Below are positions 22,101-38,086 of a stretch of 64,000 nt of DNA, in pieces. Under the pieces are notes generated by a model, which made no database searches, was not told where the DNA came from, and worked only from the letters and a program-made list of their open reading frames with translations. A program made the translations under genes and the position numbers. How positions within the stretch are numbered: the stretch's first letter is position 1; the number at the start of each line of letters is the position of its first letter. The DNA lies in the NCBI GenBank assembly GCA_017535325.1, contig JAFXUC010000029.1, positions 78,878 to 142,877 of the forward strand, written 5' to 3'. This DNA is from Bacteroidales bacterium (GTDB taxonomy: Bacteria > Bacteroidota > Bacteroidia > Bacteroidales > UBA3824).

Positions 22101-22377
22101 CCGTTATCTTACTTCTGATGCCAACAGACCTGGTACTCAGTTCCTTTATGATGGTTCATATATACGATTGAAAAATGCCGAAATTTCTTACACATTCAAC
22201 TCTTTGAAAGTAGGCCGTTATAAATTCAACAATGTGAAGATTTATCTCAACGGCAACAACCTTTGGGTTTACACAAGGATGCCTGATGACCGCGAATCGA
22301 ACCTTTCCGGTGTGGGCTACCAAGGTCAGTATCCTACTGTCAAGAGGTTTACTTTAGGTTTGAAATTCTCACTTTAA
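19141..22377 (+). CDS. xusA: SusC/RagA-type TonB-dependent outer membrane receptor (XusA-like)
   Basis: The 1078-residue product is the channel of a SusCD transporter that imports oligosaccharides across the outer membrane. It has a signal peptide (about 1-35; M14 is an alternative start), a carboxypeptidase-regulatory-like domain (about 38-108, GTVTDEAGEPLPGVTVMVEG), a clear TonB box at 113-121 (EEVVIVGYG), a plug with LVLVDGIERPMN and GVKGANGVIIITTKRG, and a 22-strand barrel ending KRFTLGLKFSL. It is first in a six-gene operon in the order of the XusABCDE-Xyn10C xylan core of Prevotella and Bacteroides. The symbol rests on order and type, not on a sequence search. Confidence 0.92.
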   Translation: MKDKLNRKVCPRGMKSFLMTMLLTLFFGVLSAQAQTKQITGTVTDEAGEPLPGVTVMVEGTTSGTITDLDGKYQISVPDGAKLVFSFIGYETITMDAVNNLKVTLPEETSEIEEVVIVGYGQQKKASVVGAITQANSETLQRAAGVPDLGQALTGNLPGLVTMQSTGMPGEENPDIVIRGSSSWNSSAPLVLVDGIERPMNSVDVSSVASISVLKDASATAIYGVKGANGVIIITTKRGSEGRAQINASFSSTMKTVSKLPGKYDSYDALMARNTAIENELSLNPESWNKIENQLFINNYRNQDPNARDEKGNLIIERYPNIDWQDYLFKNQAMAYNANVNISGGSKFVRYYSSIDWTNESDLFKRFENNRGYESGYAYNRINVRSNLDFNITKTTVLKTNLAGSVGMQNTPMANTGYSNLGEWALSQQWAGVYGIPSNAYYPQYEDGAWGNYDVFGIKNVSNGAQSMAYGDGTNRTTTTNIATDVILEQDLKFITKGLSLTGMISWDNRFTEKERGIVDRYNSPLVKNIDPHTGESFYEPTDGYDKTNRYDFSDPVDWSTNGGNVNHWTAPPYKNLNYQIRLNWDRSFDKHNITAMGLFERQEQTNGSEIPRLRENWCFRFTYNWNNRYFFEYNGAYNGSEKFSEDNRFAFFNSGALGWTVSNEAFMNSLRESGIIEHLKIRASYGEIGDDSYGAWDNSKRWLYVSTWGTGGSAYMNEMHGGWSGNDNKSIYNYYYEGTVGNEDVHWEVVRKFNVGVDYSFLKGMFMGNFDIFRDRRTDILIGGGDRTAVPRYLGMAAPTANLGEVKTKGYEVELKFNKDIPAVKGLNVWANLNMTHAENEVIKKEDSELLPSYRKQAGFAIGQTTSQLSNGFMQTYDDIYASPQFDTQDNFKLPGDYYYVDFNGDGVINSDDRAPVYYSNVPQNTYNATLGVSYKGWSAFVQFYGVTNVTRDVSLSSFGLDHLDNVYDTGTWWAEDHDNADVVTPRYLTSDANRPGTQFLYDGSYIRLKNAEISYTFNSLKVGRYKFNNVKIYLNGNNLWVYTRMPDDRESNLSGVGYQGQYPTVKRFTLGLKFSL

Positions 22378-22397
22378 TAAATAGTATAATTTAAATT

Positions 22398-24353
22398 ATG
22401 AAAAAATTTATCAATATAATGTCGGTGGCGTTGGCTTTGTCGGTGTCGGTCGGTTTTTCAAGTTGTACTGACTATCTCGACAAGGAGCCGGATTCCGATG
22501 TCTCTACAGAGGCTCCCTTTCAAAATTTTAAAAATTTTCAGGGTTTCGTAGAGGAAATATACAACAGCATTCCTCATAAGATAGGCAATTATTGGGAGAC
22601 AGCTTTCAACTGGGGTGAAGACGAGTATGTAAACCCTGCAGGTTCTCACCTTTTGACACGTCCTATGGACAACGGTAACTTCCGCGCATGGTTTGGTGAA
22701 GGCGGTGCTTGGGGCGGCAGTTATTTCTACCATGGCGGCGACGAAGATTACCGTAGTGGCGACCGTATGAAACACCACATCTATTCGGCTGCTTTTTACA
22801 ATATCCGTAAAGCAAACCTCGGTCTTGCCAATATGGACTTGCTTACTGATGCTACCCAAGAGCAGAAGAACGCTATTATGGGACAATTGCTTTTCTTCCG
22901 TGCATGGTGGCATGAGGAAGTTATGATTTACATGGGCGGTATTCCTTATATTGACCAGGTACTTGACGGTACTGAGAAGTTGCCCCGCCCGACATTCCAG
23001 GAATGTGCAAAAAGAGCGGCAGAGGATTTTGGCGAGGCAGCCAAGTATCTGCCTGACAACTGGGATAATTCGTCGGCTGGTACTGCCACATTGGGCAAAA
23101 ACAATATCCGTATTACCAAGTCTACTGCTCTTGCTTATCAAGGTAAGATGTTGCTTTATGCTGCAAGCCCCCTTGCAACAAACGGTGCTCAGGTTGGTGG
23201 TGGACAAACATATAGTTACGATACAGAACTTGCAAAAGCGGCTGCCGAGGCTTTGGGTCAGTCAATAGAACTTATAGAAACCGGCAAGACTCCTTATAAA
23301 TGGGCAGAATACAACTACGCTTCTGTTAAGGATCTTACCGACCACAAACAGTCGTCTGACAACAGTTACGATGATATTTTTTATACCATCGATGCTAACT
23401 GTAAGCAACCTGGTGCTAAGGAAGCTATGATGCGTGGCACTCCGTTTAGCCAATTAAACGCTGCCGACTGGGGATTTGCATGTACTTGGGGTCCTCAGTT
23501 AGACAACTTGTGCCAGTCATCAACAATCAATATGCCTACAGCAAATTATGTTGATTATGCTTACGGTATGAAAAACGGACTTCCGTTAAGCGACCCCGAA
23601 TCCGGCTGGGATAAAACTCACCCGTTTAAAGACCGCGATCCGCGTTTCTATCACGACATCATTTTTGACGGTGTCAGATATATTCTTGCTGATGTGAAAG
23701 GTACCAACCATGAGTATTTGGCGTATGCAACTCTGTACACCGGAGGCGCAATGCGTGACGAAACTCAGGCGAGCCGTACTGGATATTTTGAACAGAAACT
23801 TGTTCCACATCAGGCTAACTCTGACGACAAATGGTTGAGGAGTTCCCGTCTGGCATGTTATGTTCCTTATATGCGTATTGCTGATGTCTACTTGATGTAT
23901 GCAGAGGCTGGTTCGGCAGCATCAGGCTGCTCAAACAGCACTTACAAGGCAAGTTCATGCAGTCTTACTGCTGTTGACGCTGTCAACAAAATCCGTGAAA
24001 GAGTTGGCGTGGATCCTGTATCGGGTAAATATCTTTCCGGAACTGACTTTATGGACTGTGTACGTCGTGAACGCGCCTGCGAACTTGCATTCGAGGGTTT
24101 CCGTTTCAACGACCTCCAACGCTGGTTGCTGCTCACCGAGGCTCCTTATACAGAGAAGCGCGCAGCGTCGTTTACTCGTGTAGAAAACGACGAATGGTAT
24201 ACTAAAAATGACCCGTCGGAAGCTGAAGTAAAAGACTATAATCTTGATGACTTGATTATCAAGCGCAACTATACGTCAAAACATTACTGGTTCCCGTTTA
24301 TGGACAATGATGTTTACCTGTATAAAGACTTCCCCCAAAATCCGGGTTGGTAG
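22398..24353 (+). CDS. xusB: SusD-family xylan-oligosaccharide binding lipoprotein (XusB-like)
   Basis: The 651-residue product is a surface lipoprotein (lipobox FSSC, Cys 23) of the SusD/RagB fold. It forms a lid on the preceding SusC and captures oligosaccharides. The TPR-rich core shows ALAYQGKMLLYAASPLA, YLMYAEAG and the conserved RERACELAFEGFRFNDLQRW near the C-terminus. It starts 20 bases after the SusC stop. The ligand is inferred to be xylan fragments from the surrounding GH10, GH43 and esterase genes. Confidence 0.92.
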   Translation: MKKFINIMSVALALSVSVGFSSCTDYLDKEPDSDVSTEAPFQNFKNFQGFVEEIYNSIPHKIGNYWETAFNWGEDEYVNPAGSHLLTRPMDNGNFRAWFGEGGAWGGSYFYHGGDEDYRSGDRMKHHIYSAAFYNIRKANLGLANMDLLTDATQEQKNAIMGQLLFFRAWWHEEVMIYMGGIPYIDQVLDGTEKLPRPTFQECAKRAAEDFGEAAKYLPDNWDNSSAGTATLGKNNIRITKSTALAYQGKMLLYAASPLATNGAQVGGGQTYSYDTELAKAAAEALGQSIELIETGKTPYKWAEYNYASVKDLTDHKQSSDNSYDDIFYTIDANCKQPGAKEAMMRGTPFSQLNAADWGFACTWGPQLDNLCQSSTINMPTANYVDYAYGMKNGLPLSDPESGWDKTHPFKDRDPRFYHDIIFDGVRYILADVKGTNHEYLAYATLYTGGAMRDETQASRTGYFEQKLVPHQANSDDKWLRSSRLACYVPYMRIADVYLMYAEAGSAASGCSNSTYKASSCSLTAVDAVNKIRERVGVDPVSGKYLSGTDFMDCVRRERACELAFEGFRFNDLQRWLLLTEAPYTEKRAASFTRVENDEWYTKNDPSEAEVKDYNLDDLIIKRNYTSKHYWFPFMDNDVYLYKDFPQNPGW

Positions 24354-24401
24354 CATTTAGAAAATTGTAAATTGATTTTTATTGAAAATTTTTAGGATAA
24401 A

Positions 24402-27400
24402 ATGAAAAAATTGACAAATATATTGGTTGCTTGTTCACTTGCCGGTTTTCCGCTCAGCGCGGGTGCGGTTGATGCCGCTTCTGCTGTGGAAATCACATCA
24501 GATGTGAACGACAACATCACCGTTACGGGAAAAGTGAAAGCCCAGGACGGTACGCCGTTGCCGGGTGTTTCGGTAGTGCTCAAAGGCACTACTGCCGGCA
24601 CAATCAGCGACTCGGAAGGCGTATTTTCCATTTCAGTTCCCGATGATGGAACTTTGGTATTCTCTTTCGTCGGTTACAAATCAAAAGAAGTTCCGGTGGG
24701 AGGCAATACAGACCTTGGAACCGTTACTCTTGAATTGGAGGGAGAAGATTCTGAAGGTTTGGTGCATATCGCGTTTAGAGACGAAAAAGCCGATGAAATC
24801 TTGGGCGGCGTATCTTACGTAAATGTTCAGGACATTATTGACAAAAACTACTTTACCTATACGATGGACAACCTCTACACATTTGTAAGCGGCTACAACG
24901 GTGGCAGTGTATGGGGTTATTCTGAGGTTTTGGCAATAGTGGACGGTGTTCCTCGTTCTTTGGATAATGTAATGCCTTCCGAAATAGAAAGCATTACTTT
25001 CTTAAAAGGTGCGCAGGCAGTGGCATTGTATGGAAGCCGTGGTGCTAATGGTGCGATACTTGTTACCACCAAACGCGGCAAGGAGCAGGAGATGAAAATT
25101 TCGGCGCGTGCAAACACCGGAATTTATGTGGACAAGGTTTATCCCGAATATCTCGGCGCAGCCGAATATATGAACTATTACAATCAGGCCCGTAAAAATG
25201 ACGGTCTCACTCCGCTCTACTCTGACGAGGATATTTACTATACCTCTACCGGCGACAATCCTTACCGTTACCCGGATGTGGATTTCTATTCTTCCGACTA
25301 TATCCGCAAGATTAGCAACCGCACCGATGTAACAGCAGAAATCAATGGTGGTAGCAAGTTTGCTCGTTATTATTCTAATGTAAGTTACTACACAGCCAAC
25401 AGCAACCTTAAATTTGGTGAAGGAGAAAACCTCGGTACCGACCGTTTCAATATCCGAGGTAACGTTGATATGAACTTCAACGAATATATTTCGGCAGCCG
25501 TTGACGCAAACGTAACTATGTACAACAGCAAGGGATACGTGGTTAACAGTGCAGATTATTGGAGTGCGGCATCTTCATGGCGTCCCAACAGGGTTTCTCC
25601 GTTTATCCCGACCTCGCTGATTAGTGAATATGCAACAGAGGCTCAGGAACTTATAAAGTTGGAAGATAATATATACGACGGTAAGTTCTTGGCTGGTAGT
25701 ACAACCGATCAAAATAATGTTTTCGCCGATCTTTTGTACGCTGGAAAAACAAAATCAACCATCAGACAGTTTCAATTTGACCTGAGACTTGATTTTGACC
25801 TCTCTCAGTTGTTGAAAGGTTTCTCTTTCCATACACAGGCTTCTATGGACTATAATACTGCATATAACACAAGTTTTACTGACAAATATGCAGTATATGC
25901 TCCGCAATGGACTAATGTTAATGGTAAGGATGAAATTATCGGTCTTGAAAAAATTAATGAGGATCAACATTCTGGTGTTCAAAACATTAGCGCAAGATAC
26001 AACAACCGTACGACTGCATTCTTCGCTCATTTTGACTACAATCGTATATTTGGTTCTCATACAGTAAATGCTATGTTGCTTGCCAACGGTTTTCAAATTG
26101 AAAACTCAGGTGAATATCACCACGTAGCCAACGCCAACTTAGGTTTGGATGTTCACTACGATTTCGACAAACGCTATTTCGCCGCATTTACTGCTGCAAT
26201 GCCGTATTCCGCAAAATTGGAGGAAGGTTCGCGTGCCGGATTCTCTCCTTCGCTTTCTTTTGGTTGGAATATTTCCAATGAAGATTTCTTCAATAAGGGA
26301 CTTATCAGCAGTCTTATGCTTAGCGTCAGCGCAAGCGATTTGAGTCAGGATGTTGATATTGATGATTATTATATGTATCTTGGTGCATACGCAACAGGCG
26401 GTTATGTATCTTGGGGTAATAGCGGCAGTCAACCTGGTTTCCAGAGCAAAAATGCCGACAATCCTGACTTCGGATATGTTCATCGCAAAGAACTTTCTAC
26501 AAACTTGCGTCTTGGCATGATGAATAATAGTCTTACATTCGACTTCTCGGCTTATACAAACCTTACAACAGGTCTGATATATCAGCCGACGGGAGCATAT
26601 CCCTCGTATTTCAACTACAACGGTTCTAACTTTATTCCCAACCTCAACTATAATGACGATTTGCGCCGCGGTTTTGACCTGGCAATCAACTATCGTACAA
26701 AAATCGGAGAGGTTAATTTTGGCGCAGGTCTCAATTTTACATACGTAAATGTTAAAGCCAACAAGCGCGACGACTCACAGTATGAATACGAATACCAGCA
26801 TCGTGAAGGCACTGCCCTCAACGCTCACTGGGGATATGAATGTTTGGGATTTTTCCAAGACGAAACCGACATCGCCAACTCTCCTGACCAGAGTTCTTTC
26901 GGTGCCACAATCAAACCCGGCGACCTTAAATACAAAGATCAGAACGGCGACGGTATAATTGACAACAAGGACATTGTAGATCTTGGTGAGGTTAACGGCT
27001 GGGCGTATGGTGCTCCTTACGCTATGGGTGTCAACCTTTCTGCTTCGTACAAAGGATTCACACTTTATATGTTGGGTATTGGTCAAACCGGATATTCGTC
27101 ACTCTACAACAATAGTTACTACTGGCCTGCCGGCGAGGAAAAATATTCTGCCAACGTCCGCAGCGCATGGACTCCCGAAACTGCGGCTACCGCAGAGTAT
27201 CCGCGTCTGACGACAGGGTCATCTGCAAACAACCGTCAGACATCCGATTTTTGGATGAAAAAAATCTCTCGTTTTGATCTCACGAGGGTTCAACTTACAT
27301 ACGATTTGCCCTCTACTATGTTCCAAAACATTGGTTTTATATCGGGCGTGTCGGTATATGTTAGCGGAAGCAACCTTGCTACCATATCCAAAGAGAGAGA

Positions 27401-27473
27401 AAAACTTACTCTCAATGTTGGCGCGGCTGCACAAACCCGTTTTTATAACTTAGGTGTTAAAGTTAACTTCTAA
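24402..27473 (+). CDS. xusC: Second SusC-type TonB-dependent receptor (XusC-like) with a divergent TonB box
   Basis: The 1023-residue product has a signal peptide, a carboxypeptidase-regulatory-like domain (about 40-115, GKVKAQDGTPLPGVSVVLKG), a plug with LAIVDGVPRSLDNV and GSRGANGAILVTTKRG, and a C-terminal barrel ending NLGVKVNF. Where the first receptor has VVIVGYG, this one has EGLVHIAFRDEKADEILGG, so no standard TonB box is visible. The segment DIIDKNYFTYTMDNLYTFVS is typical of the second receptor of xylan loci. It forms a pair with the following SusD gene and would import larger or differently decorated xylan fragments. Confidence 0.9.
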   Translation: MKKLTNILVACSLAGFPLSAGAVDAASAVEITSDVNDNITVTGKVKAQDGTPLPGVSVVLKGTTAGTISDSEGVFSISVPDDGTLVFSFVGYKSKEVPVGGNTDLGTVTLELEGEDSEGLVHIAFRDEKADEILGGVSYVNVQDIIDKNYFTYTMDNLYTFVSGYNGGSVWGYSEVLAIVDGVPRSLDNVMPSEIESITFLKGAQAVALYGSRGANGAILVTTKRGKEQEMKISARANTGIYVDKVYPEYLGAAEYMNYYNQARKNDGLTPLYSDEDIYYTSTGDNPYRYPDVDFYSSDYIRKISNRTDVTAEINGGSKFARYYSNVSYYTANSNLKFGEGENLGTDRFNIRGNVDMNFNEYISAAVDANVTMYNSKGYVVNSADYWSAASSWRPNRVSPFIPTSLISEYATEAQELIKLEDNIYDGKFLAGSTTDQNNVFADLLYAGKTKSTIRQFQFDLRLDFDLSQLLKGFSFHTQASMDYNTAYNTSFTDKYAVYAPQWTNVNGKDEIIGLEKINEDQHSGVQNISARYNNRTTAFFAHFDYNRIFGSHTVNAMLLANGFQIENSGEYHHVANANLGLDVHYDFDKRYFAAFTAAMPYSAKLEEGSRAGFSPSLSFGWNISNEDFFNKGLISSLMLSVSASDLSQDVDIDDYYMYLGAYATGGYVSWGNSGSQPGFQSKNADNPDFGYVHRKELSTNLRLGMMNNSLTFDFSAYTNLTTGLIYQPTGAYPSYFNYNGSNFIPNLNYNDDLRRGFDLAINYRTKIGEVNFGAGLNFTYVNVKANKRDDSQYEYEYQHREGTALNAHWGYECLGFFQDETDIANSPDQSSFGATIKPGDLKYKDQNGDGIIDNKDIVDLGEVNGWAYGAPYAMGVNLSASYKGFTLYMLGIGQTGYSSLYNNSYYWPAGEEKYSANVRSAWTPETAATAEYPRLTTGSSANNRQTSDFWMKKISRFDLTRVQLTYDLPSTMFQNIGFISGVSVYVSGSNLATISKEREKLTLNVGAAAQTRFYNLGVKVNF

Positions 27474-27487
27474 ATTTTAATAAAGAA

Positions 27488-29332
27488 ATGAAATTAAGAA
27501 AATCTTATATATTCCCGTTGTTTGCAGCAGCAGGTTTGTTGTGCGCGTGTGAAGACGTATTTGAACCCGCACCCGAAAACAAAAGCGAGCTGGAGGCAAT
27601 CTACGACAGTCCAAGAAGGGCGCAGGGACTTATTGGCCAGGTTTATTCGATGGTAGACGGGTTGTACCCTTCTACTCCGCAGAGCGACTTGGCTACCGAT
27701 GATGCGGTCTCCAACAAGACAAACAATTCTTATTCTGTCATAGCACAAGGCGGTTGGAAATCTGATTACAACCCCCTTTCAAGATGGGACAATTGTTATG
27801 CGGCTATCAATTATTGTAATATTTTTCTCGACAATGCCGATAAAATTACTTGGGTAAAAGCCGATGATGTTTTAAATAAATATTATTCAGATCGTTTCAA
27901 GGCTGAGGCATACGCATACAGGGCAATTTTCCATTACAAACTGCTTGAGGCTCACGCAGGTATGGTGGGAGGTACTCTTATGGGTATTCCTATTCATGAC
28001 AAGGCTGAAAGTGACGGTAATTTTATTCAGACTCGTTCTACGTTTAAGGAATGTGTTGATTTTATTATGAACGACTTCAACACTGCCCTCAAATATCTTC
28101 CCGCACAATTCGGAGATATAGAATCTCAGGATGATGTGCCGGAAAATATCAAACAGATTATGGGTGATGGTAAAGGCGAAGTTAATCTTAGCAGTTACAA
28201 CCGTGTATACGGCACACAGAATATTGGTAAAATAGACGGCACTATTATCAAGACCATAAGATCTCAGTTTGAATTTATGGTTGCCTCGCCGGCATATCAA
28301 TCGGCTAATACCGGTATTGACTGGTCTGTTGCCGCACAAGATGCTGCAAAAGTATTAGCCGATGCTGGCAAAACAGCCTCCTCTATGGATAAGGACGGAT
28401 GGTTCTGGTTTGACGATTCACGTGTGGACAATTTTAAGCCGTTGGAAGGCAAGTCAACCCACGGTGAAGTTTTGTGGCACAATTATAGTGAAAACGAAAA
28501 CCGCAGCCTCGAATCCGATTGTTATCCTCCGTCTATTTATGGCGGCGGCGACATCAATCCTACACAAAACCTTGTTGATGCATTCCCGATGGAAAACGGT
28601 TATCCTATTACCGACGTGACCAACAGCGGTTATGACAAAAACAACCCCTATGCCGGACGTGATCCCCGTCTTAAAAAATACATTTTGGTTAACGGCGATG
28701 TGTTAGGCAACAACAGCAAAACCATATCCGTGGTGATGCCCGCTACCGGCGAAAGCAACATTGATGCCAACAATCAGGAAAACGGAAAGTCTACAAAAAC
28801 AGGTTATTACCTTAAAAAACTTCTCCGTTCAAAAGGTGTGAACTTGGATCCTTCGTCCGGAGTAAATGCTAAGCACCTTGTTGCACGCATACGTTACACT
28901 GAAATTTTCCTGAATTTTGCCGAAGCCGCCAACGAGGCGGTAGGTCCCAAGGCTTTGGTAGGTGATGCATCCTTCTCTGCATACGATGTCATTAAGGCAA
29001 TCCGCGAAAGGGCAGGCATTACCGACACAAGGTATTTGGACGAGTGTGCCGGCGACAAAGACAAGTTCCGCGAACTTATCCGCAATGAAAGACGCCTTGA
29101 ACTTTGTTTCGAGAACAAGCGTTTTTGGGATTTAAGACGTTGGATGGTGGAACTTCCGCTGCTTAACGAAAATGCAAATGGCGTTACAATTACGGAAAAC
29201 GCAGACAAAACACTCAATTTTACATATAGTGAAGTTGAGAGACGTGATTACAAGGATTACCAGTACTATGGACCGATTCCATACTATGAGTGCTTGAAAT
29301 TTTCTGAACTTACTCAAAACACCGGCTGGTAA
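27488..29332 (+). CDS. xusD: Second SusD-family lipoprotein (XusD-like)
   Basis: The 614-residue product has a lipobox (LCAC, Cys 21) and a SusD/RagB fold. Conserved parts are DRFKAEAYAYRAIFHYKLLE, RYTEIFLNFAEAANEA and RNERRLELCFENKRFWDLRR. It starts 14 bases after the second SusC stop and is its lid protein. It differs clearly from the first SusD in sequence, in keeping with two transporters of different range in one operon. A hairpin lies between this gene and the next. Confidence 0.92.
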   Translation: MKLRKSYIFPLFAAAGLLCACEDVFEPAPENKSELEAIYDSPRRAQGLIGQVYSMVDGLYPSTPQSDLATDDAVSNKTNNSYSVIAQGGWKSDYNPLSRWDNCYAAINYCNIFLDNADKITWVKADDVLNKYYSDRFKAEAYAYRAIFHYKLLEAHAGMVGGTLMGIPIHDKAESDGNFIQTRSTFKECVDFIMNDFNTALKYLPAQFGDIESQDDVPENIKQIMGDGKGEVNLSSYNRVYGTQNIGKIDGTIIKTIRSQFEFMVASPAYQSANTGIDWSVAAQDAAKVLADAGKTASSMDKDGWFWFDDSRVDNFKPLEGKSTHGEVLWHNYSENENRSLESDCYPPSIYGGGDINPTQNLVDAFPMENGYPITDVTNSGYDKNNPYAGRDPRLKKYILVNGDVLGNNSKTISVVMPATGESNIDANNQENGKSTKTGYYLKKLLRSKGVNLDPSSGVNAKHLVARIRYTEIFLNFAEAANEAVGPKALVGDASFSAYDVIKAIRERAGITDTRYLDECAGDKDKFRELIRNERRLELCFENKRFWDLRRWMVELPLLNENANGVTITENADKTLNFTYSEVERRDYKDYQYYGPIPYYECLKFSELTQNTGW

Positions 29333-29389: not shown

Positions 29390-29429
29390 TTTAATAAAAA
29401 AATGTTAAATAACACAAATGTTTATTGAA

Positions 29430-30512
29430 ATGAAAAATTTGTACAAATATATTTCAGTTTCTTTGTTGGCGTTTGCGGGATTAAACTCCTGCAAAAACGC
29501 TGACAAAGATTTTGAAGATTATGAAGGCGGCGTATCTGTTTACTTTGCCTACCAGACTCCGATAAGGACTTTGGTCATGGGCGAAGACACCTACAATACC
29601 GACCTCGACAATGCCCACATGTGTAAAATATCTGCTACTATGGGCGGCGCATACAAAGGCAAGAATATTACCGTAAACGTAGAAAAGGACGAATCGCTTC
29701 TTACTAACCTTTATTTTAAAGGCGGCGACAAAATTGAGTCTATGCCTGAAAATTATTACTCTCTGTCTTCTACAGCTATGAATTTTGACGGCAAAATGAC
29801 AGGCTCAATTACAGTAAGTCTTGCAGATGCGTTTTTTGAAGACGAAAAAGCCGTTACAGGCGGTTATGTAATACCTTTGGTTATCACCAGCCAGAGCGGT
29901 GCTGACCATATTAATACAGGTAAATATGATGAGAGTGTGTATTCGTCAGCTCCGCAACGCACCAATACTGACGCGTGGAAGGAAGCACCGAAAGACTACA
30001 CATTGTTCTGCATCAATTACATCAGCAAATATGAGGGCTATTTTATGCGCCGCATTACAAGTATCAATGGAAAGGACTCTATTCACGTGGTTGCACTGCC
30101 CGAACTGCCCGATTATCCTGTCGCAGTAGGCGATTTCCGCTATCAGCAGGGCAACGACTCTATTCGCAGGTATTATATCAGAAACGCCAACGAGCCTATT
30201 GTAAATACCAAGACTGTAAACCTCAACAAGGTAACATACGTTGCAGGTCTTGACGGAACTAATTACAATCTCGTTCTTGACTTTGCAACAGGAATGGTAT
30301 CTGCTCCTGACGGTGCGTCTTACACCGTTGAGAATGGCTCTTGCGTGTACAAAGACCATTCTGAAACGAAGGCGTGGGGCAACAAAGACCGCGACGGATT
30401 GTACCTCGATTATACCGTTATAGACGGCGAGAAAAAAATCCCCGTAAAGGAGACCCTCGTTTTGCAGCGTAGGGGCGTAGTTCTCAATACTTTTGAAACA
30501 GAAATCAAATAA
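29430..30512 (+). CDS. xusE: DUF1735-type surface glycan-binding lipoprotein (XusE-like)
   Basis: I start the gene at the ATG of 29430 (360 residues), because MKNLYKYISVSLLAFAGLNSC gives a proper lipoprotein signal with Cys 21, whereas the in-frame ATG at 29418 only adds four residues. The N-terminal third resembles the DUF1735 beta-sandwich of Bacteroidota surface glycan-binding proteins (segments such as VSVYFAYQTPIRTLVMGED and YVIPLVITSQSG). In xylan loci the gene in this position encodes a non-catalytic surface binding protein. Direct evidence of xylan binding is not visible in the sequence. Confidence 0.8.
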   Translation: MKNLYKYISVSLLAFAGLNSCKNADKDFEDYEGGVSVYFAYQTPIRTLVMGEDTYNTDLDNAHMCKISATMGGAYKGKNITVNVEKDESLLTNLYFKGGDKIESMPENYYSLSSTAMNFDGKMTGSITVSLADAFFEDEKAVTGGYVIPLVITSQSGADHINTGKYDESVYSSAPQRTNTDAWKEAPKDYTLFCINYISKYEGYFMRRITSINGKDSIHVVALPELPDYPVAVGDFRYQQGNDSIRRYYIRNANEPIVNTKTVNLNKVTYVAGLDGTNYNLVLDFATGMVSAPDGASYTVENGSCVYKDHSETKAWGNKDRDGLYLDYTVIDGEKKIPVKETLVLQRRGVVLNTFETEIK

Positions 30513-30522
30513 CGAAATCATT

Positions 30523-33186
30523 ATGAAACAATATAGATATTATTATTTGGCGGCACTTTCGCTGGGACTTTTGTCTTCTTGTGCCGACGATTTGACTCAG
30601 AATATGCCTGTCGAGAGCGTTCCGCTCTCTGTGCAGGTGATGGAGGAATTGAAAAATCTTGAGCCTTTGAAGTCATACAAGACGGCTTCCAATATGTCGC
30701 AGGATTTTAAAGTCGGCGGCGCGGTTTCTGCCGGGGAGTTCGCAAAAGGCGGCAATGTAGGTGCTTTGGCGGCTGCTAACCTTGACGAGATTACCACTAA
30801 AACAGAAATGTTGTATGGTAGTTGCATAGCAGACGACGGTACAATGGATTTTAGCAATGTCAATACTTTGGTTGATGCTGCAAAAAAAGCAAATGTAGGC
30901 GTTTTTGGTTCTGCTCTTGTTTGGAACTCGAACCAAAGACCGAATTATTATCAGGCTCTGTTTGAAAAAAGAGACGAAGAGATAAAAGAGGAAAAAAAGA
31001 AAGAACGCGAAGCAAGGGGAGGACAGACCGTTCAGGGTAGTGTTACGGATCTTGAAGCATCCCAGTTTGATAAAGTTTCTTGGCGTCCTGATGGCATAGC
31101 GGATAAAATTACTTTTAATGACGGTGTTATTGAAGTAAATAATCCTGAGGCTACCCCGAATTTTTGGGATGTGCAATACAATGTTGTCGGAGGTGTTAAT
31201 ACGAAAGCGGGTGTTAAATATACCGTTACTATTACAATGAAAGGTTCTACGGCAGGCAAAGCACATTATAAGGTCGGCAATTGGAGTGAAGGAAAAACTG
31301 GTGAAATTTCTTTTACTGATGATTGGTCGGATGTCGTAATTACAGGAACAGATTTCTTGGATATTGAGGGTGGATTCTTAATGTTGCAGCATGGAGATTT
31401 TGTAGGTACAGTTTACATTAAATCTGTAAAGATTGCTCATGAGGAAGAAATGATGATGCCAACAACCGAGGAAGTTGTAGATGTTGATGCAACTAAAATT
31501 ACTGCATTGGCATGGGATGGAACAGGAGATAACGCTAATGTTACTTTTAATGACGGTGTTGTTGCTATTGAAACTCCTCAAGCGGCAGAAAACTTTTGGA
31601 ATGTGCAGTATAATGTTGTCGGAGGTTTTAATACAAAAGCCGGTGTTAAATACGCAGTTGTTCTTAATATGAAAGGATCGTCAGCTGGTAAGGCTCATTA
31701 CAAAGTCGGCAATTGGAGTGAAGGAAAAACTGGTGAAATTTCTTTTACTGATGATTGGTCGGATGTCGTAATCACAGGAACCGATTTCTTTGATATTGAG
31801 GGTGGATTCTTAATGTTGCAACATGGTGATTTTGTAGGTACTGTTTATATCAAATCTGTAAAGGTGCTGCATTATGAGGAAGTTAAAGATGATGAACCTG
31901 CAACTATAGAGAAAAACATTGTTGAAAACAGCGATTGTGAAGGCTCAGAAAACGGAAATTATGTACTCCGTATACAAGGTGCTGGTGGCGATGTTAACGC
32001 ATCATTCACTGATGGCGGCAAAGACGGTAAATGTATTAAAATAGATGTCGCAGCAAAGACTGCTAATGCATGGGACAACCAGTTTTTTATTACAGTTCCT
32101 GATTATAAGGAGAAGTTTGATCCTACTGCAAATGTAACTCTTGTTATGGACGTAAAAGCGGCTGTTGCACAGAAGATTTCGGTTCAGACTCATGCTGCTG
32201 CGGGTGATTATACCGGCGGTTTTGGCGATATAAACGCAGAAACGGAGTGGAAAACCTTTACATTGAAGGGTTCTATGCCTAAACATGCAGAAAAAGGTCA
32301 GTCTTATTCTTTGGCTTTCAACCTTAACGACGGCGATGGTGTTACAAATACTTTCTATTTTGACAACATAAAACTTTTGGTAGAGGAAAAACTTCCCGCC
32401 GGAGAAATCGCTCCTGAGGAAAAAGCCGCTGTTCTTGTAAAGGCTATGGATTCATGGATTTTCAATATGATGGACAACACCTCTGGCTACGTAAAAGCAT
32501 GGGATATTGTTTCTGATCCGCTTTCTGACGGCGCAGTACAGAAGGACGGTATTTACGGACTTCAAAGCACTGAAAAACCGAATACAAAGAAAGAATATAA
32601 TGACGTATTCTTCTGGCAGGATTATCTCGGCGATGTAGATTATGTTCGTTATGCAGTATCGTCTGCCCGCAGACATTTTAAAGGTTCAAAAGAAGATTTG
32701 AAACTTTTCGTAAACGAGTACGGTCTTGACAGCGACGAGAAAAAATGTGCGAGCCTTGTAAACTGGGTTAACACATGGGAAAACGATACCGTAAAAATTG
32801 ATGGTATCGGCGTTCAGTTGCATCTTAACTGTTCTACCGATGCATCGGCAAACGAGCAGACTTTGAGCAAAGTTTCGACTATGTTGCAAACTTTGTCCGG
32901 CACAGGTAAACTTATAAGAATTTCTGAATTGGACATCAACTTTGTTGACAATTCAGGTTCTTCAATCAAAGCAAGTGATGTTTCTGACGCAGACATCAAT
33001 ACTTTGGCTGCATTCTATACGTCAGTAATCAGGACTTATCTTGCAAATGTTCCTGCTGGACAGCAGTACGGCATTTGTCAGTGGTCTCTTACAGACGAGA
33101 ACGGTTTGCCGAAAGGTCTTTGGACGGACAAATTCCTGCGTAAGCAGACGTTCAAAGGTTTTGCTGACGGTTTGAGCGGAAATTAG
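30523..33186 (+). CDS. GH10-fold lipoprotein with three inserted carbohydrate-binding modules and a degenerate active site
   Basis: The start is the ATG at 30523, 10 bases after xusE (887 residues); a TTG at 30493 inside xusE is unlikely. Lipobox LSSC leads into a GH10 barrel split by an insertion of about 440 residues. The insertion holds two near-identical CBM4/22-like modules (about 177-308 and 320-452) and a third module (about 465-620). The nucleophile is kept (E802 in RISELDI). The acid/base motif, normally WDxVNE, reads WDIVSD (W660 to D665), and the usual GHTLxWH reads GSALVWN (129-135). The intact paralogue at 33448 has both motifs. It sits where xyn10C lies in known loci, but may bind rather than cut xylan. 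Confidence 0.85.
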   Translation: MKQYRYYYLAALSLGLLSSCADDLTQNMPVESVPLSVQVMEELKNLEPLKSYKTASNMSQDFKVGGAVSAGEFAKGGNVGALAAANLDEITTKTEMLYGSCIADDGTMDFSNVNTLVDAAKKANVGVFGSALVWNSNQRPNYYQALFEKRDEEIKEEKKKEREARGGQTVQGSVTDLEASQFDKVSWRPDGIADKITFNDGVIEVNNPEATPNFWDVQYNVVGGVNTKAGVKYTVTITMKGSTAGKAHYKVGNWSEGKTGEISFTDDWSDVVITGTDFLDIEGGFLMLQHGDFVGTVYIKSVKIAHEEEMMMPTTEEVVDVDATKITALAWDGTGDNANVTFNDGVVAIETPQAAENFWNVQYNVVGGFNTKAGVKYAVVLNMKGSSAGKAHYKVGNWSEGKTGEISFTDDWSDVVITGTDFFDIEGGFLMLQHGDFVGTVYIKSVKVLHYEEVKDDEPATIEKNIVENSDCEGSENGNYVLRIQGAGGDVNASFTDGGKDGKCIKIDVAAKTANAWDNQFFITVPDYKEKFDPTANVTLVMDVKAAVAQKISVQTHAAAGDYTGGFGDINAETEWKTFTLKGSMPKHAEKGQSYSLAFNLNDGDGVTNTFYFDNIKLLVEEKLPAGEIAPEEKAAVLVKAMDSWIFNMMDNTSGYVKAWDIVSDPLSDGAVQKDGIYGLQSTEKPNTKKEYNDVFFWQDYLGDVDYVRYAVSSARRHFKGSKEDLKLFVNEYGLDSDEKKCASLVNWVNTWENDTVKIDGIGVQLHLNCSTDASANEQTLSKVSTMLQTLSGTGKLIRISELDINFVDNSGSSIKASDVSDADINTLAAFYTSVIRTYLANVPAGQQYGICQWSLTDENGLPKGLWTDKFLRKQTFKGFADGLSGN
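31273..31437 (+). repeat. Internal DNA repeat, copy A (CBM module 1)
   Basis: This segment is about 95% identical in DNA to 31705-31869, 432 bases (144 codons) downstream. I count eight differences over 160 bases, and only one changes an amino acid (Leu to Phe). It encodes VGNWSEGKTGEISFTDDW and onward to YIKSVK. A recent in-frame tandem duplication or gene conversion explains it. Confidence 0.85.
31705..31869 (+). repeat. Internal DNA repeat, copy B (CBM module 2)
   Basis: This is the partner of 31273-31437. Identity drops sharply upstream of both copies, where the modules are only related at the protein level. That points to conversion of the 3' half rather than a wholly new duplication. 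Confidence 0.85.
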
Positions 33187-33214
33187 TCAAAACAGAAGCA
33201 CAGTTAACTATAAG

Positions 33215-33258
33215 ATCCGGCGTTTTCTGCTGCAAAAGCGGAAACGCCGGATTTTTTT
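33215..33258 (+). terminator. Terminator of the Xus operon
   Basis: ATCCGGCGTTT and AAACGCCGGAT form a perfect 11-bp stem with a T run after it, 29 bases after the last gene of the operon. Confidence 0.88.
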
Positions 33259-33308: not shown

Positions 33309-33340
33309 TTTGATTAAACCGAAAATTGTTATTATCTTTG
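33309..33340 (+). promoter_or_regulatory. Promoter of the GH10/CE6-GH5 unit
   Basis: TTTG (33309-33312), a 20-base spacer and TATCTTTG (33333-33340) are an exact match to the Bacteroidota consensus. A leader of about 100 bases precedes the xylanase start. This separates the unit from the Xus operon upstream. Confidence 0.75.
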
Positions 33341-33447: not shown

Positions 33448-35286
33448 ATGAGAAATTTTTTCCTTTATTCCTTGGTTGCGGCTGCTGTTTTGGCAGGTTG
33501 CAGCAAAGAGGATAGCAAACCGGTCAATCCTTGGAATCCCAATGACGGTAAGGATACGTCTGCTGTTGAACCTACTCCGACGCCGACTCCTACTCCTGAA
33601 CCGACTCCTACTCCGGAGCCTGTTCCCTCGGATTTTGACGGGTCTAAATTCTTAAAAGAGTATATTGACAGAGCAAAACATCCGATATTCAAGTTTTCGG
33701 GCGCGTTGGCCGTTAATGAATTTCACGCCAACACTAACGGCATAAAGGATACTGTTTCTGTGCATTTTGACGAAATAGTTGCAGGAAACGCCATGAAATA
33801 CGGCTCTGTTGTTAACGGCAACGGTCAGATGAATTTCGACAACGTAAAGATGTTCTGTGCTGACGCAAAGGCGGCTAATCTTACTATTTACGGTCATACG
33901 CTCGCATGGCATTCGCAGCAACAGCCGGGCTATCTTTTGGGTCTTATGAAAGACAGAGTTGTTCAGGATCCGAACGCCGAACCCGTTGAAATAACCGACC
34001 TTTCTGTTGATTACAAGGGGATGTCCTCTTACAATATGTGGCACGGCGAGTTTCAAAATGCTGACAACAATGTTGATTACGATGTCAGGATTGAAAACGG
34101 ACTTCTGCATTGCGTAAACAAAAAAGAGGCTAAGCTGTTTTACAGTGTGCAGTATTTTATCGCTGACAATATTCCGACCGAAACCGGCGGCAATTATGAG
34201 GTTACGTTAAAGATAAAAGCGTCTGAGTCCTGCAAAATCACCTTTGTAATGGGCGGCTGGTCAAAGACTTTCAATACGAAAATAGACGTTTCTGAAACTA
34301 TGTCGGAAGTGAAGATTCCTGTTGAAAACCTTGCCGAGGGCGGCGGACATGTTATGTTGCAGTCCGGCGACTTTGTCGGCGATATTTGGGTTGAAAGCGT
34401 TAAAATCACGCATTGGGGCAGCGACAAGACCGTTCCGCTTACCGAAGAACAGAAACGCGACACCCTCAAATGGGCTATGGACAACTGGATTAAAGGCATG
34501 ATGGAGGCAACTGACGGTTTTGTAACGGCTTGGGATGCTGTAAACGAGGCACTTTCTGGCGGTGACAAAGACGGCGACGGAATCTGCGACTTGCAGAATT
34601 ACGAAAACAACAACATTTCCGACCCGTCAAATGTTTCGTCAGGAGTTTTCTATTGGCAGGCTTTCATGGGCGACCTTGAATATGTCCGCACTGTAATTGC
34701 CTCGGCAAGAAAGCATTACAAAGGAAATCCTGATGATTTGAAACTTTTTATCAACGACTACAACCTCGAAAGCGACTGGGACGACAACTGGAAAGTCAGA
34801 AGCCTTGTTGAATGGGTTAAAAGGTGGGAAGCCGACGGTGTAACCAAAATCGACGGACTCGGTACTCAGATGCACATCAGTTGCTACGAAAACGAACAGT
34901 TGCAAAAAAGTGCGGAAGACCATATCGTAAAGATGTTCCAGATAATGGCTAACTCCGGCAAACTCGTCCGTATCTCGGAACTTGACATGGGCTATGTCAG
35001 GGGCAGCAACAAATGGGCAGGTTCTATTGCAACAGAGCAGGTAACGGACGCAGAGCACAAAAAAATGGCTGACTTTTATAAGTTTATCATTAAAAAATAT
35101 TTTGAAATAGTTCCCCAGGCGCAGCAGTACGGTATTTGTCAGTGGTGTCTTACCGACGCGCCGGGAAAGATAACCGATCAGGGCGGTTGGCGTAACGGTC
35201 AGCCCGTCGGTATCTGGACTTTAGGGTTCAAGAAGAGAAAGGAGGCTTACAGAGGCTTCGCCGAAGGTCTTGCTGAAAGGGATTAA
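33448..35286 (+). CDS. GH10 endo-1,4-beta-xylanase lipoprotein with an inserted binding module
   Basis: The 612-residue product is an endo-xylanase placed on the cell surface or periplasmic face by a lipobox (LAGC). A linker of Pro-Thr repeats (about 40-58) follows WNPNDGKDTS. The GH10 barrel has H150 and H155 in YGHTLAWH, acid/base E367 in WDAVNEA and nucleophile E511 in RISELDM, so it looks active. One CBM4/22-like module (about 172-328, with HVMLQSGDFVGDIWVESVK) is inserted into the barrel at the same place as the three modules of the GH10-like protein upstream. Its stop lies 20 bases before the CE6-GH5 gene. Confidence 0.94.
   Translation: MRNFFLYSLVAAAVLAGCSKEDSKPVNPWNPNDGKDTSAVEPTPTPTPTPEPTPTPEPVPSDFDGSKFLKEYIDRAKHPIFKFSGALAVNEFHANTNGIKDTVSVHFDEIVAGNAMKYGSVVNGNGQMNFDNVKMFCADAKAANLTIYGHTLAWHSQQQPGYLLGLMKDRVVQDPNAEPVEITDLSVDYKGMSSYNMWHGEFQNADNNVDYDVRIENGLLHCVNKKEAKLFYSVQYFIADNIPTETGGNYEVTLKIKASESCKITFVMGGWSKTFNTKIDVSETMSEVKIPVENLAEGGGHVMLQSGDFVGDIWVESVKITHWGSDKTVPLTEEQKRDTLKWAMDNWIKGMMEATDGFVTAWDAVNEALSGGDKDGDGICDLQNYENNNISDPSNVSSGVFYWQAFMGDLEYVRTVIASARKHYKGNPDDLKLFINDYNLESDWDDNWKVRSLVEWVKRWEADGVTKIDGLGTQMHISCYENEQLQKSAEDHIVKMFQIMANSGKLVRISELDMGYVRGSNKWAGSIATEQVTDAEHKKMADFYKFIIKKYFEIVPQAQQYGICQWCLTDAPGKITDQGGWRNGQPVGIWTLGFKKRKEAYRGFAEGLAERD
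33568..33629 (+). repeat. Pro-Thr coding microrepeat in the xylanase linker
   Basis: Short imperfect repeats of CCGACG, CCTACT and related units encode a Pro-Thr/Pro-Glu linker between the lipid anchor and the GH10 domain. The copy number could vary between strains. Confidence 0.7.
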
Positions 35287-35306: not shown

Positions 35307-38009
35307 ATGAAGAAAAAATTTTTTTTGATTTCGTGTTTAGCGGCGTTGTTTTTTGCCGCTTGCCACAAGGATGAGGACAAACCGGAGGTCAAGCCTTGGA
35401 ATCCTGATGAAGGAAAGGATACCTCAACCGTTGTTCCTCCTCAGCCTGAACCGGTTCCTGACGGCAAGATGTCTGTTTTCCTGTGTTTCGGACAGTCCAA
35501 CATGGAGGGCAACGCTGCTGTTGAGGAACAGGACAGAACCGGTATTCCCGACAATTTCAAGACGATGATTGTCGCAAACTGCGACGTTGAGCATTACGGT
35601 GCAAAGCGTTACACTTGGCGAAAGGCAGATCCGCCTTTGGCGCGTTTTACTACGGGGCTTACTCCGGCTGACTATTTCGGACGTAAGGTCGCTTCAAAAC
35701 TTCCTTCCGGCGAAAGGGTAGGAGTGGTGATGGTTGCAATCGGCGGTGCGTCAATTGAGGCCTTTGAAAAAGAGACTTGTGAGGCTTACTGCAACAAGTC
35801 CGACCATGCCGACTGGTACAAGGCTTATCTCAAAGAGTATGACAACAACCCTTACAAAACGCTTATTGACGCTGCGAAAGAGGCTCAGAAAAGCGGTGTT
35901 ATCAAAGGTATACTTCTTCATCAGGGAGAGACCAACAACACTGATCCGACATGGCCGGAACGTGTAAAGAAAATTTACGACAACATTATTGCCGACCTTG
36001 GTCTTAATCCGCAGAATTGTCCTCTGCTTGCAGGAGAAATGCTGCGTCAGGAGAACGGCGGAATTTGCTACGGTCATAATGAAGTTATCGCTAAACTTCC
36101 CGATGTTTTGCCTAATTCTTACGTTATTTCGTCCGAAGGCTGTGAAGGCAACGGTCAGGACGGTTTCCATTTCAACGCCGAAGGTTACAGAATCTTAGGT
36201 GAAAGGTACGCTTCAAAAATGCTTGCTCTTATGGGTATAGCCTCTGACGGCGAGTATGTCGGATTTCATGTTGAAGGACGTTTCTTGAAAGATATGAACG
36301 GACAAATTGTCAACCTTCACGGTTTCGGACAGACTTATAGTCCGTGGTTCAACGAGCAGGGAACTAAATGGAACGGCGAAGATGTTGAGGGTTGTCTAAA
36401 ATACAATCAGGGACTTATCCGCGACATTATGGACGCCGGCTGGGAAATGACATGGATGCGTCTTCACATGGATCCGCATTGGACGGTTAAGCAAAACAGT
36501 GGTTATAACGGCGAGGCTGTGGCTCATCTGTATTTCGACGAGACAAGGTTTAAAAAATATCTTGACGAGGTTTTTGTCCCGATGACGAAATTTTGTATTA
36601 ACAATTATAAATTGGCTGTTGTAATGCGTCCTCCGGGAGTTTGCGGCGATGGAGAATTAAAATACGGTGATGATTATCAAAAGTATCTGTTAAAAGTTTG
36701 GGGTATAGTTTCATCTCATCCGTATCTTAAAAATAATCCGTATGTTATGTTTGAACTCGCTAACGAGCCGGTTAGGTTTAATGGCGGCGACGAGAAGTAC
36801 AGCAAGTATTTTCAGGACGTAGTAGACCTTATCCGCACTAACTGCGAAAACGTAGTTTGGGTTCCTGGGCTTGCATATCAGCAGGATTACAAGGCTTTTG
36901 CCAATTATCCGATAAAAGGCAAGAATGTCGGTTATGCGGTTCACTGTTATCCGGGTTGGTACGGTTCGCCGGCACAAGTCAGTGCTGAGGAGTTCAACAC
37001 TCCGCTTGACGGAAACGAGGAAAAATTCCGTGCGGGTTTTGCTGCAAACGTAGGCTGTGTTGCAAGTTTCGCGCCTATTATTATAACGGAGATGGACTGG
37101 TCTCCGCACGAGTACAACGAAAACCATCACGTTGCGTGGGGAAGTTCTACAACCTCGGCTTTCGGCGAGCCTTTCAAGAGAATTGCTGACGAGTACGGAA
37201 ACGTCAGTTGGATGATTTTTACTTCACCGCATCTTTTGGCTAAATACAAAAATCATTCAAGTCTTGACGAAAGGTCGCAGAAATTTCTTGAAGATCCGGA
37301 GGCTTGTCCTACGGCGGCTTACAACTGGTACAAAGAATATGCCGGCGGCGAGGTCAGTCATGGAAAGGTTACAGGAATTGAGGTTTCTGCTCCTAATGCC
37401 GTAATGCAGGGTGCGTCGGTACGCATAAATGTGAAACTCAAATACGAGGACGGTTACAAAATTGCCACGACTGACGGACTGAGTTTTGAAATTGCTGACG
37501 CTGCTGTTCTTAAAGACTTGGGCGAAGGACGTTTTTCTGCCGAGACTATCGGTGAAACAACTGTGAAAGTAACCTGCGGTGATTTTTCTGAGGACGTAAA
37601 AATCAGTGTTGTAGGGCTGTTTGATTTGGCGACCTTCAATCCGAGCATTTATGAAACGGGAACCTTTGACCTTGAAACAAGAACTTTTACAACCGGACAG
37701 TACGGTTTTGCCGGCTGGAAATATGAGTCTCCTGTGGATTTGTCTGCATACAAGTATTTGGTTGTAGAAATGGAGGACTGTGAGGCACTCAATTCATACG
37801 AATTTTCGTTCCGGGTGTTTGATTCCGACAATTATTGGGGCGGTTGCGCTACGTATAAATTCGAGGGCAATACGACGGTTAAAGTTGAACTTGCCAAATT
37901 AGCAAAGGACGACGGAACAAAGATGGACGCTTCGCATGTTTATTGTGCAGGTTTTTGGTCAATCGGCAATGTGAAGGCTGTTATCAAGGAGATAAGATTT
38001 GAGAATTAG
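35307..38009 (+). CDS. Multidomain lipoprotein: CE6-like acetyl esterase fused to a GH5 glycosidase and C-terminal beta-sandwich domains
   Basis: The 900-residue product has a lipobox (FAAC), a linker with WNPDEGKDTS, a CE6/SGNH esterase (about 55-310; S64 in [10 protein letters not shown]-x-x-H in DGFHFNAEGY), and a GH5 barrel (about 320-680; acid/base E487 in ELANEPV, nucleophile E595 in ITEMDW). An Ig-like domain (about 690-770) and a CBM-like beta-sandwich (about 775-900) follow. It would deacetylate and cut xylan or an associated beta-glycan at the surface. The GH5 subfamily cannot be fixed from motifs alone. A strong terminator follows. Confidence 0.88.
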   Translation: MKKKFFLISCLAALFFAACHKDEDKPEVKPWNPDEGKDTSTVVPPQPEPVPDGKMSVFLCFGQSNMEGNAAVEEQDRTGIPDNFKTMIVANCDVEHYGAKRYTWRKADPPLARFTTGLTPADYFGRKVASKLPSGERVGVVMVAIGGASIEAFEKETCEAYCNKSDHADWYKAYLKEYDNNPYKTLIDAAKEAQKSGVIKGILLHQGETNNTDPTWPERVKKIYDNIIADLGLNPQNCPLLAGEMLRQENGGICYGHNEVIAKLPDVLPNSYVISSEGCEGNGQDGFHFNAEGYRILGERYASKMLALMGIASDGEYVGFHVEGRFLKDMNGQIVNLHGFGQTYSPWFNEQGTKWNGEDVEGCLKYNQGLIRDIMDAGWEMTWMRLHMDPHWTVKQNSGYNGEAVAHLYFDETRFKKYLDEVFVPMTKFCINNYKLAVVMRPPGVCGDGELKYGDDYQKYLLKVWGIVSSHPYLKNNPYVMFELANEPVRFNGGDEKYSKYFQDVVDLIRTNCENVVWVPGLAYQQDYKAFANYPIKGKNVGYAVHCYPGWYGSPAQVSAEEFNTPLDGNEEKFRAGFAANVGCVASFAPIIITEMDWSPHEYNENHHVAWGSSTTSAFGEPFKRIADEYGNVSWMIFTSPHLLAKYKNHSSLDERSQKFLEDPEACPTAAYNWYKEYAGGEVSHGKVTGIEVSAPNAVMQGASVRINVKLKYEDGYKIATTDGLSFEIADAAVLKDLGEGRFSAETIGETTVKVTCGDFSEDVKISVVGLFDLATFNPSIYETGTFDLETRTFTTGQYGFAGWKYESPVDLSAYKYLVVEMEDCEALNSYEFSFRVFDSDNYWGGCATYKFEGNTTVKVELAKLAKDDGTKMDASHVYCAGFWSIGNVKAVIKEIRFEN

Positions 38010-38031: not shown

Positions 38032-38073
38032 TAAAAAAAGCCGCTGGTGTTTTGGTTGACGGCGGCTTTTTTT
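38032..38073 (+). terminator. Terminator of the GH10/CE6-GH5 unit
   Basis: AAAAAAAGCCGC and GCGGCTTTTTTT form a 12-bp stem around a loop of about 17 bases. The next promoter (38051-38082) lies within the loop and the distal arm of this terminator. Confidence 0.85.
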
Positions 38074-38082
38074 GTATTTTTG
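38051..38082 (+). promoter_or_regulatory. Promoter of the DUF6057 gene, overlapping a terminator and adjoining the start codon
   Basis: TTTG (38051-38054), a 20-base spacer and TATTTTTG (38075-38082) match the consensus. The start codon of the gene begins 5 bases after the -7 box, so transcription should begin at or near the A of ATG, giving a leaderless mRNA. Confidence 0.65.
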
Positions 38083-38086
38083 CGGC

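Follow-up and report, generated by a model that had tools for sequence, protein, structure and literature searches.

Does a xylanase gene that has lost its catalytic motifs still serve the operon in which it lies, and in what capacity? The question is raised by a 64,000-nt stretch of DNA, hereafter the window, of a Bacteroidales bacterium (UBA3824; GCA_017535325.1, contig JAFXUC010000029.1, positions 78,878 to 142,877 of the forward strand), in which a GH10 gene with altered motifs precedes an intact paralogue. The original prediction, made from the letters of the window, proposed that a xylanase had here been converted into a surface xylan-binding scaffold, losing catalysis and gaining binding modules.

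Organization of the locus

The degenerate GH10 frame opens with an ATG at 30523, closes with a stop codon ending at 33186 and begins 10 bases 3' of the gene for a XusE-like protein. It occupies the position of Xyn10C, directly after xusE, with modules inserted after β3, and the insert divides its match to Pfam PF00331 (GH10) into two stretches. The features of the locus are as follows.

19141..29332, + strand: two susC/susD pairs (19141-22377, 22398-24353, 24402-27473 and 27488-29332; frames, Pfam, synteny with relatives)
29418..30512, + strand: XusE-like protein (BT_3987-like N domain, DUF5627; Pfam)
30523..33186, + strand: degenerate GH10 lipoprotein, 887 aa (open frame; Pfam GH10, 133.5 bits)
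30523..30582, + strand: signal peptide with lipobox LLSSC-ADD (Cys20; sequence, lipoprotein call from the motif alone)
30655..31017, + strand: GH10 barrel part 1 (β1-β3), with T94, L97, S130 and N135 replacing N, K, H and H (alignment)
31081..31470, + strand: inserted CBM4-like module A, residues 187-316, resembling the inserted GH10 modules 4mgs/4qpw
31489..31890, + strand: inserted module B, residues 323-456, which duplicates A in tandem and is 77% (aa) and 84% (nt) identical to it
31915..32400, + strand: inserted module C, residues 465-626, of the second type found in canonical Xus GH10s (module comparison)
32410..33174, + strand: GH10 barrel part 2 (β4-β8; Pfam stretch 634-863, model)
32500..32517, + strand: WDIVSD, residues 660-665, acid/base Glu replaced by D665 and the preceding Asn by S664 (alignment)
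32917..32937, + strand: RISELDI, residues 799-805, nucleophile E802 kept (alignment)
33213..33258, + strand: predicted intrinsic terminator behind the degenerate gene, hairpin of -27.4 kcal/mol then T7 (hairpin analysis)
33310..33340, + strand: promoter-like site of Bacteroides type, TTG-N20-TATCTTTG, preceding the intact paralogue (motif match to TTG-N20-TAnnTTTG only)
33448..35286, + strand: intact GH10 xylanase, a lipoprotein with a single inserted module, starting 261 bases 3' of the degenerate gene (frame, Pfam, alignment)
35307..38009, + strand: SASA-type esterase and GH5-like protein (Pfam)

The order susC-susD-susC-susD-xusE-first GH10 recurs across the window's genus, and the first GH10 is followed by a strong hairpin and a run of T, both in the window and in the majority of the relatives inspected; a consensus terminator scan did not flag the hairpin at 33213-33258. 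The terminator after the degenerate gene and the promoter-like site before the paralogue suggest separate transcription units, the susCD-xusE transcript ending with the degenerate gene and the intact enzyme having a unit to itself. Further downstream lies a gene pair encoding a probably membrane-bound protein of 555 aa (38072-39739) and a PD40 propeller protein (39736-41196), which also accompanies Xus GH10 loci in G012, G006, G013, L088, L087, L090, L094, L098 and L104 (G and L numbers being our handles for genomes and loci).

Catalytic residues and fold

The degenerate protein reads GSALVWN at residues 129-135, has the altered WDIVSD and keeps RISELDI, whereas the paralogue is intact at all three motifs (GHTLAWH, WDAVNE and RISELD). 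The original prediction had read these sites correctly in both proteins, albeit incompletely, the catalytic damage being larger, as judged by alignment, than three motifs convey. We aligned 74 module-inserted GH10 proteins from the window's genus and other Bacteroidales and defined near-invariant columns on the 61 intact ones. The degenerate protein was changed in 10 of the 21 active-site columns and in 7 of the 38 columns outside the active site, as against 0/21 and 0/38 in the paralogue and in the three closest intact orthologues (G012, G006, G016); an active-site difference of this size is far beyond what drift would be expected to leave at comparable divergence. The -2 subsite has exchanged its Asn for T94 and its Lys for L97, the loop-3 histidines are S130 and N135, the acid/base Glu of WDxxNE (β4) and the Asn before it are D665 and S664, the motif NDYNLE reads NEYGLD (E732 and D736), the loop-8 Trp is deleted and the loop-8 Arg has become E859. 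The subsite roles given here are assigned from what is established on GH10 structures. The loop-3 His pair and the acid/base Glu were present without exception in the 61 intact homologues, and from the active-site losses the degenerate protein is predicted to be devoid of endo-xylanase activity.

The residues kept are the nucleophile E802 (in RISELD, β7), H767, Q765, W134 and W854, and the exchange of Glu for Asp, the mildest possible change at the acid/base, retains a carboxylate. A trace of activity is conceivable, and the protein might be a weak or specialized enzyme, with D665 as acid/base and E802 as nucleophile, that hydrolyzes slowly, transglycosylates or acts on activated or unusual substrates. 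We consider such an enzyme unlikely, given that the Asn before the acid/base, the invariant loop-3 His pair, the -2 Asn and Lys and the loop-8 Trp and Arg were all lost together and that a bulky Lys takes the place of that Asn in the orthologue of G008. A literature search on activities of GH10 enzymes with a Glu to Asp acid/base exchange returned nothing usable.

An AlphaFold2 model of the degenerate protein, built with 42 homologues, reached a mean pLDDT of 83.2, with the barrel blocks mostly above 90. In VIA-align the model matched Cellvibrio japonicus Xyn10C (1us3) with Z 37.0 and an rmsd of 2.7 Å over 330 residues, and many other GH10s with Z of about 34-35. According to the model, the GH10 (β/α)8 barrel is complete, with only the catalytic set gone.

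Inserted modules

The predicted module counts, three in the degenerate copy and one in the paralogue, agree with our delimitation. Residues that are conserved in the modules of intact proteins are kept at 10 of 10 positions in A, 10 of 10 in B and 19 of 25 in C, the last figure comparing with 20/25 in the intact sister. A gain of modules alongside the loss of catalysis, the other half of the proposed conversion, found no support. The usual Xus GH10 insert comprises two modules (about 360 aa), intact homologues at L086, L087 and L119 also carry three, the insert of the intact sister orthologue in G012 is of similar size (569 aa versus 524 aa in the degenerate protein), and the one-module paralogue belongs in the tree to a separate clade rather than representing the ancestral state; there is therefore no link between the number of modules and inactivation. 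On account of the intact three-module proteins and the insert of G012 we rejected module gain as cause or companion of inactivation. The tandem duplication of A and B extends over 354 bases and looks young, judged from its nucleotide identity.

Orthologues and selection

Related loci were recovered with an alignment query, a single-protein query of the degenerate GH10 having given none. The orthologue in G008 (L038 8481-11255) has the same losses (WDVVKD, NEYGLD), as does that in G014 (L039 3-812; WDVVSD, NEYGLD), of which only the second barrel half is present, the gene being cut by the contig end. The first GH10 is intact in G012, G006, G016 and G009, and that of G010, cut by a contig end, reads GQSLIWH. 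Intact orthologues at this position carry WDVVNE and GHTLxWH, so the degenerate motif is not the standard of active orthologues. In a barrel tree built with the active-site columns excluded, the copies of the window, G008 and G014 formed one clade (100/100) with a stem of 0.77 and tips of 0.09-0.21; its sister was the intact G012 copy (98/82), with the intact copies of G006 and G016 next.

The long branch to the window clade (0.77 changes per site) might be expected of a decaying pseudogene, left without present function after duplication of the xylanase. Against this, full-length frames are found in both species in which the whole degenerate gene is present, the lipobox and the module residues are kept, and at 28 core positions the window clade agrees on a residue found in no intact row. 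Among the degenerate orthologues dN/dS was 0.16-0.18 (Nei-Gojobori), with 0.16 at dS 0.75 for G008 versus G014 and the other pairs at dS >1. We rejected decay on the basis of dN/dS and the shared derived residues and hold it to be highly improbable, since losses that are shared with two other species under purifying selection are not decay. For the same species pair, the adjoining intact gene gave a dN/dS of 0.046 versus 0.16 for the degenerate gene. The inactive state is thus old, common to three species and constrained, though more loosely than the enzyme.

Origins of degenerate GH10 proteins

Degenerate first copies also occur within the genus in G002, G011, G005 and G001, the one in G005 having lost both catalytic Glu residues, and beyond the genus in L164 (Prevotellaceae) and in the GH98-bearing Bacteroides loci L182, L184, L185 and L186. 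The copy at L185 8925-11177 is very probably BACOVA_03431, judging from context, as its neighbours fit the published PUL-XylL and another locus of the genome fits PUL-XylS. Two more degenerate GH10s, L187 2608-4890 (G396) and L216 2872-4503 (G278), immediately follow xusE in genomes of other families within the order, and we found no mention of either in the literature searched. An order-wide XusE survey yielded 13 xusE-GH10 pairs outside the genus, of which these two were the degenerate ones; GH10 neighbours were few because XusE-like proteins also occur in other loci.

On a 50-row tree the degenerate state requires six changes, at least four of them forced by well supported branches. A single inactivation shared by all degenerate copies was rejected (AU p 0.0028), as was a single origin for the window clade and the Bacteroides type (AU p 0.019), but one origin for all degenerate copies except the window clade was not (AU p 0.289). 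At least two independent conversions from enzyme to binding protein in the GH10 slot after xusE are firmly supported by these comparisons, and more than two are likely, several long branches limiting the trust to be placed in the count.

An intact second module-bearing GH10 accompanied the degenerate first copy in 8/8 loci (seven genomes of the genus plus L164), whereas intact first copies were paired with a second module-bearing GH10 in 2/41 loci (Fisher p 1e-7, a value that ignores kinship, the loci not being phylogenetically independent). The eight include G001, although its second GH10 has no inserted module. Where these loci have a second GH10, those of B. ovatus type carry endo-xylanases of GH30 and GH98 (PMC4491172). 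The intact second-type GH10 of G396 lies on a different contig.

Matches downstream in the Muribaculaceae loci that had been labelled as degenerate GH10s proved on reading to be module-only secreted proteins with CBM4-like modules (L117 8263-9399, L120 8321-9418, L150 8212-9393, L115 8287-9309 and L156 8303-9445). Such proteins, found also at L164 3572-5710, adjoin the intact GH10 of Xus loci in Muribaculaceae and Prevotellaceae and have a tail resembling a type IX secretion signal; they may represent another route to more binding capacity at a Xus locus.

The replacements S130, N135, N137, E732 and G734 (GSxLxxN and NExG) recur in G002/G011 and L164 (L049, L050 and L164), lineages kept apart by the tree built without active-site columns, and Asn at the second His position is also found in the Bacteroides-type degenerate GH10s. 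The recurrence would reflect either convergence or gene exchange. The barrel cleft itself may have been rebuilt to bind a ligand in a new way, xylan side chains being one example, and the shared replacements would then recur by virtue of forming that site; such a rebuilding would refine a binding function rather than compete with it. This idea draws on the recurrence of the same five residues in other degenerate lineages although the active-site columns had been excluded from the tree, but those lineages may have arisen only once (AU p 0.29), which leaves the count of independent repeats uncertain, and in termite-gut Pm25 it is the modules that drive most of the xylan binding (PMC7848910). We regard a rebuilt cleft as rather doubtful.

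Comparison with known systems and proposed function

A single inactive GH10 with a binding function was previously on record, BACOVA_03431 of Bacteroides ovatus PUL-XylL, a surface lipoprotein that binds xylans, and Rogowski et al. (2015) knew no other inactive GH10 (PMC4491172). It resembles the window protein in its slot (susC-D-C-D-xusE, then GH10), as a lipoprotein, in its inserted modules and in the loss of the catalytic machinery and the -2 subsite, but there it is the nucleophile that is missing, whereas the window protein retains its nucleophile and has lost the acid/base. The two are about 30% identical in the barrel, and their inactivations are independent according to the AU test (p 0.019). 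Behind the inactive GH10, B. ovatus has endo-xylanases of GH30 and GH98 (PMC4491172) and the window has the intact GH10 paralogue. In everything that can be read from sequence the window protein would work like BACOVA_03431, to which it adds an independently evolved case at the corresponding place in the operon.

Xyn10C-type xylanases of Xus loci (BACOVA_04390; Pm25, PMC7848910; 4mgs/4qpw) share with the window protein the modules after β3, the lipoprotein signal and the position after xusE, but they are active, with WDxxNE, GHTLxWH and full -1/-2 subsites that the window protein no longer has. Xylan binding by Pm25 is driven largely by its two inserted modules (PMC7848910), which lends support to binding by the window protein in the absence of catalysis. 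A hydrolase fold turned binding protein is likewise seen in GH18 chitin-binding lectins devoid of catalytic residues, a comparison made for BACOVA_03431 (PMC4491172), although family and ligand are unrelated.

The degenerate gene most likely encodes a pseudo-xylanase of Xyn10C type that serves as a surface xylan-binding protein (probability roughly 0.8), its display, binding, inactivity and co-transcription being deduced from sequence and analogy. Of the proposed conversion of a xylanase into a surface scaffold, the module gain is not supported, while the core is supported by the lost machinery, the kept modules, the Xyn10C position, the lipoprotein signal, the stability in relatives and the precedent of BACOVA_03431. 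As we picture it, the GH10 barrel of this Xus-locus lipoprotein would still fold, with the -2/-1 subsites and the acid/base dismantled; the three CBM4-like modules would hold xylan at the SusC/SusD porters, perhaps aided by the remaining cleft, and the intact paralogue, from its own transcription unit, would cut it.

The relatives cover every stage, from an intact first copy alone through an intact first with a second copy and a degenerate first with an intact second to a heavily eroded first copy, and since all stages are present in close relatives, the conversion is testable on near-identical backgrounds. For annotation, PF00331 or 'xylanase' labels at Xus loci include non-enzymes. A bolder reading, which we hold to be less likely than not, makes the position behind xusE a recurrent switch point in Bacteroidales: a GH10 xylanase there would become a binding protein time after time once another surface endo-xylanase is available, and the recurring GSxLxxN and NExG replacements would not simply destroy the cleft but remodel it for binding.

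Circularly permuted paralogues

Five genomes of the genus carry the second-type intact GH10 in circularly permuted form.

G016: L040 11158-13038 (identical to L088 8538-10418)
G013: L044 7000-8856, - strand
G015: L046 5453-7210, - strand
G003: L047 10479-12236
G011: L050 11668-13506

Full-length permuted matches were found in the window's genus only, among 393 genomes of the order. In the literature searched we met no GH10 described as circularly permuted in nature, although this does not establish novelty. The permuted and unpermuted forms did not each form one clade in the tree, but a single origin was not rejected (AU p 0.24). In a structure model of the permuted form, pLDDT was below 50 from residue 507 on, that half having been modelled without an alignment. 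The N part (residues about 31-74 to 426-463) matches residues 204-219 to 609-612 of the window paralogue and the C part (about 431-477 to 582-623) matches residues 62-69 to 213-215, so that β4-β8 precede β1-β3; the cut lies within the inserted module, whose first ~40 residues are now C-terminal. The unpermuted window paralogue (33448-35286) is 53-63% identical to the permuted forms in the two pieces, and these have open frames, lipobox-like starts and all catalytic residues kept.
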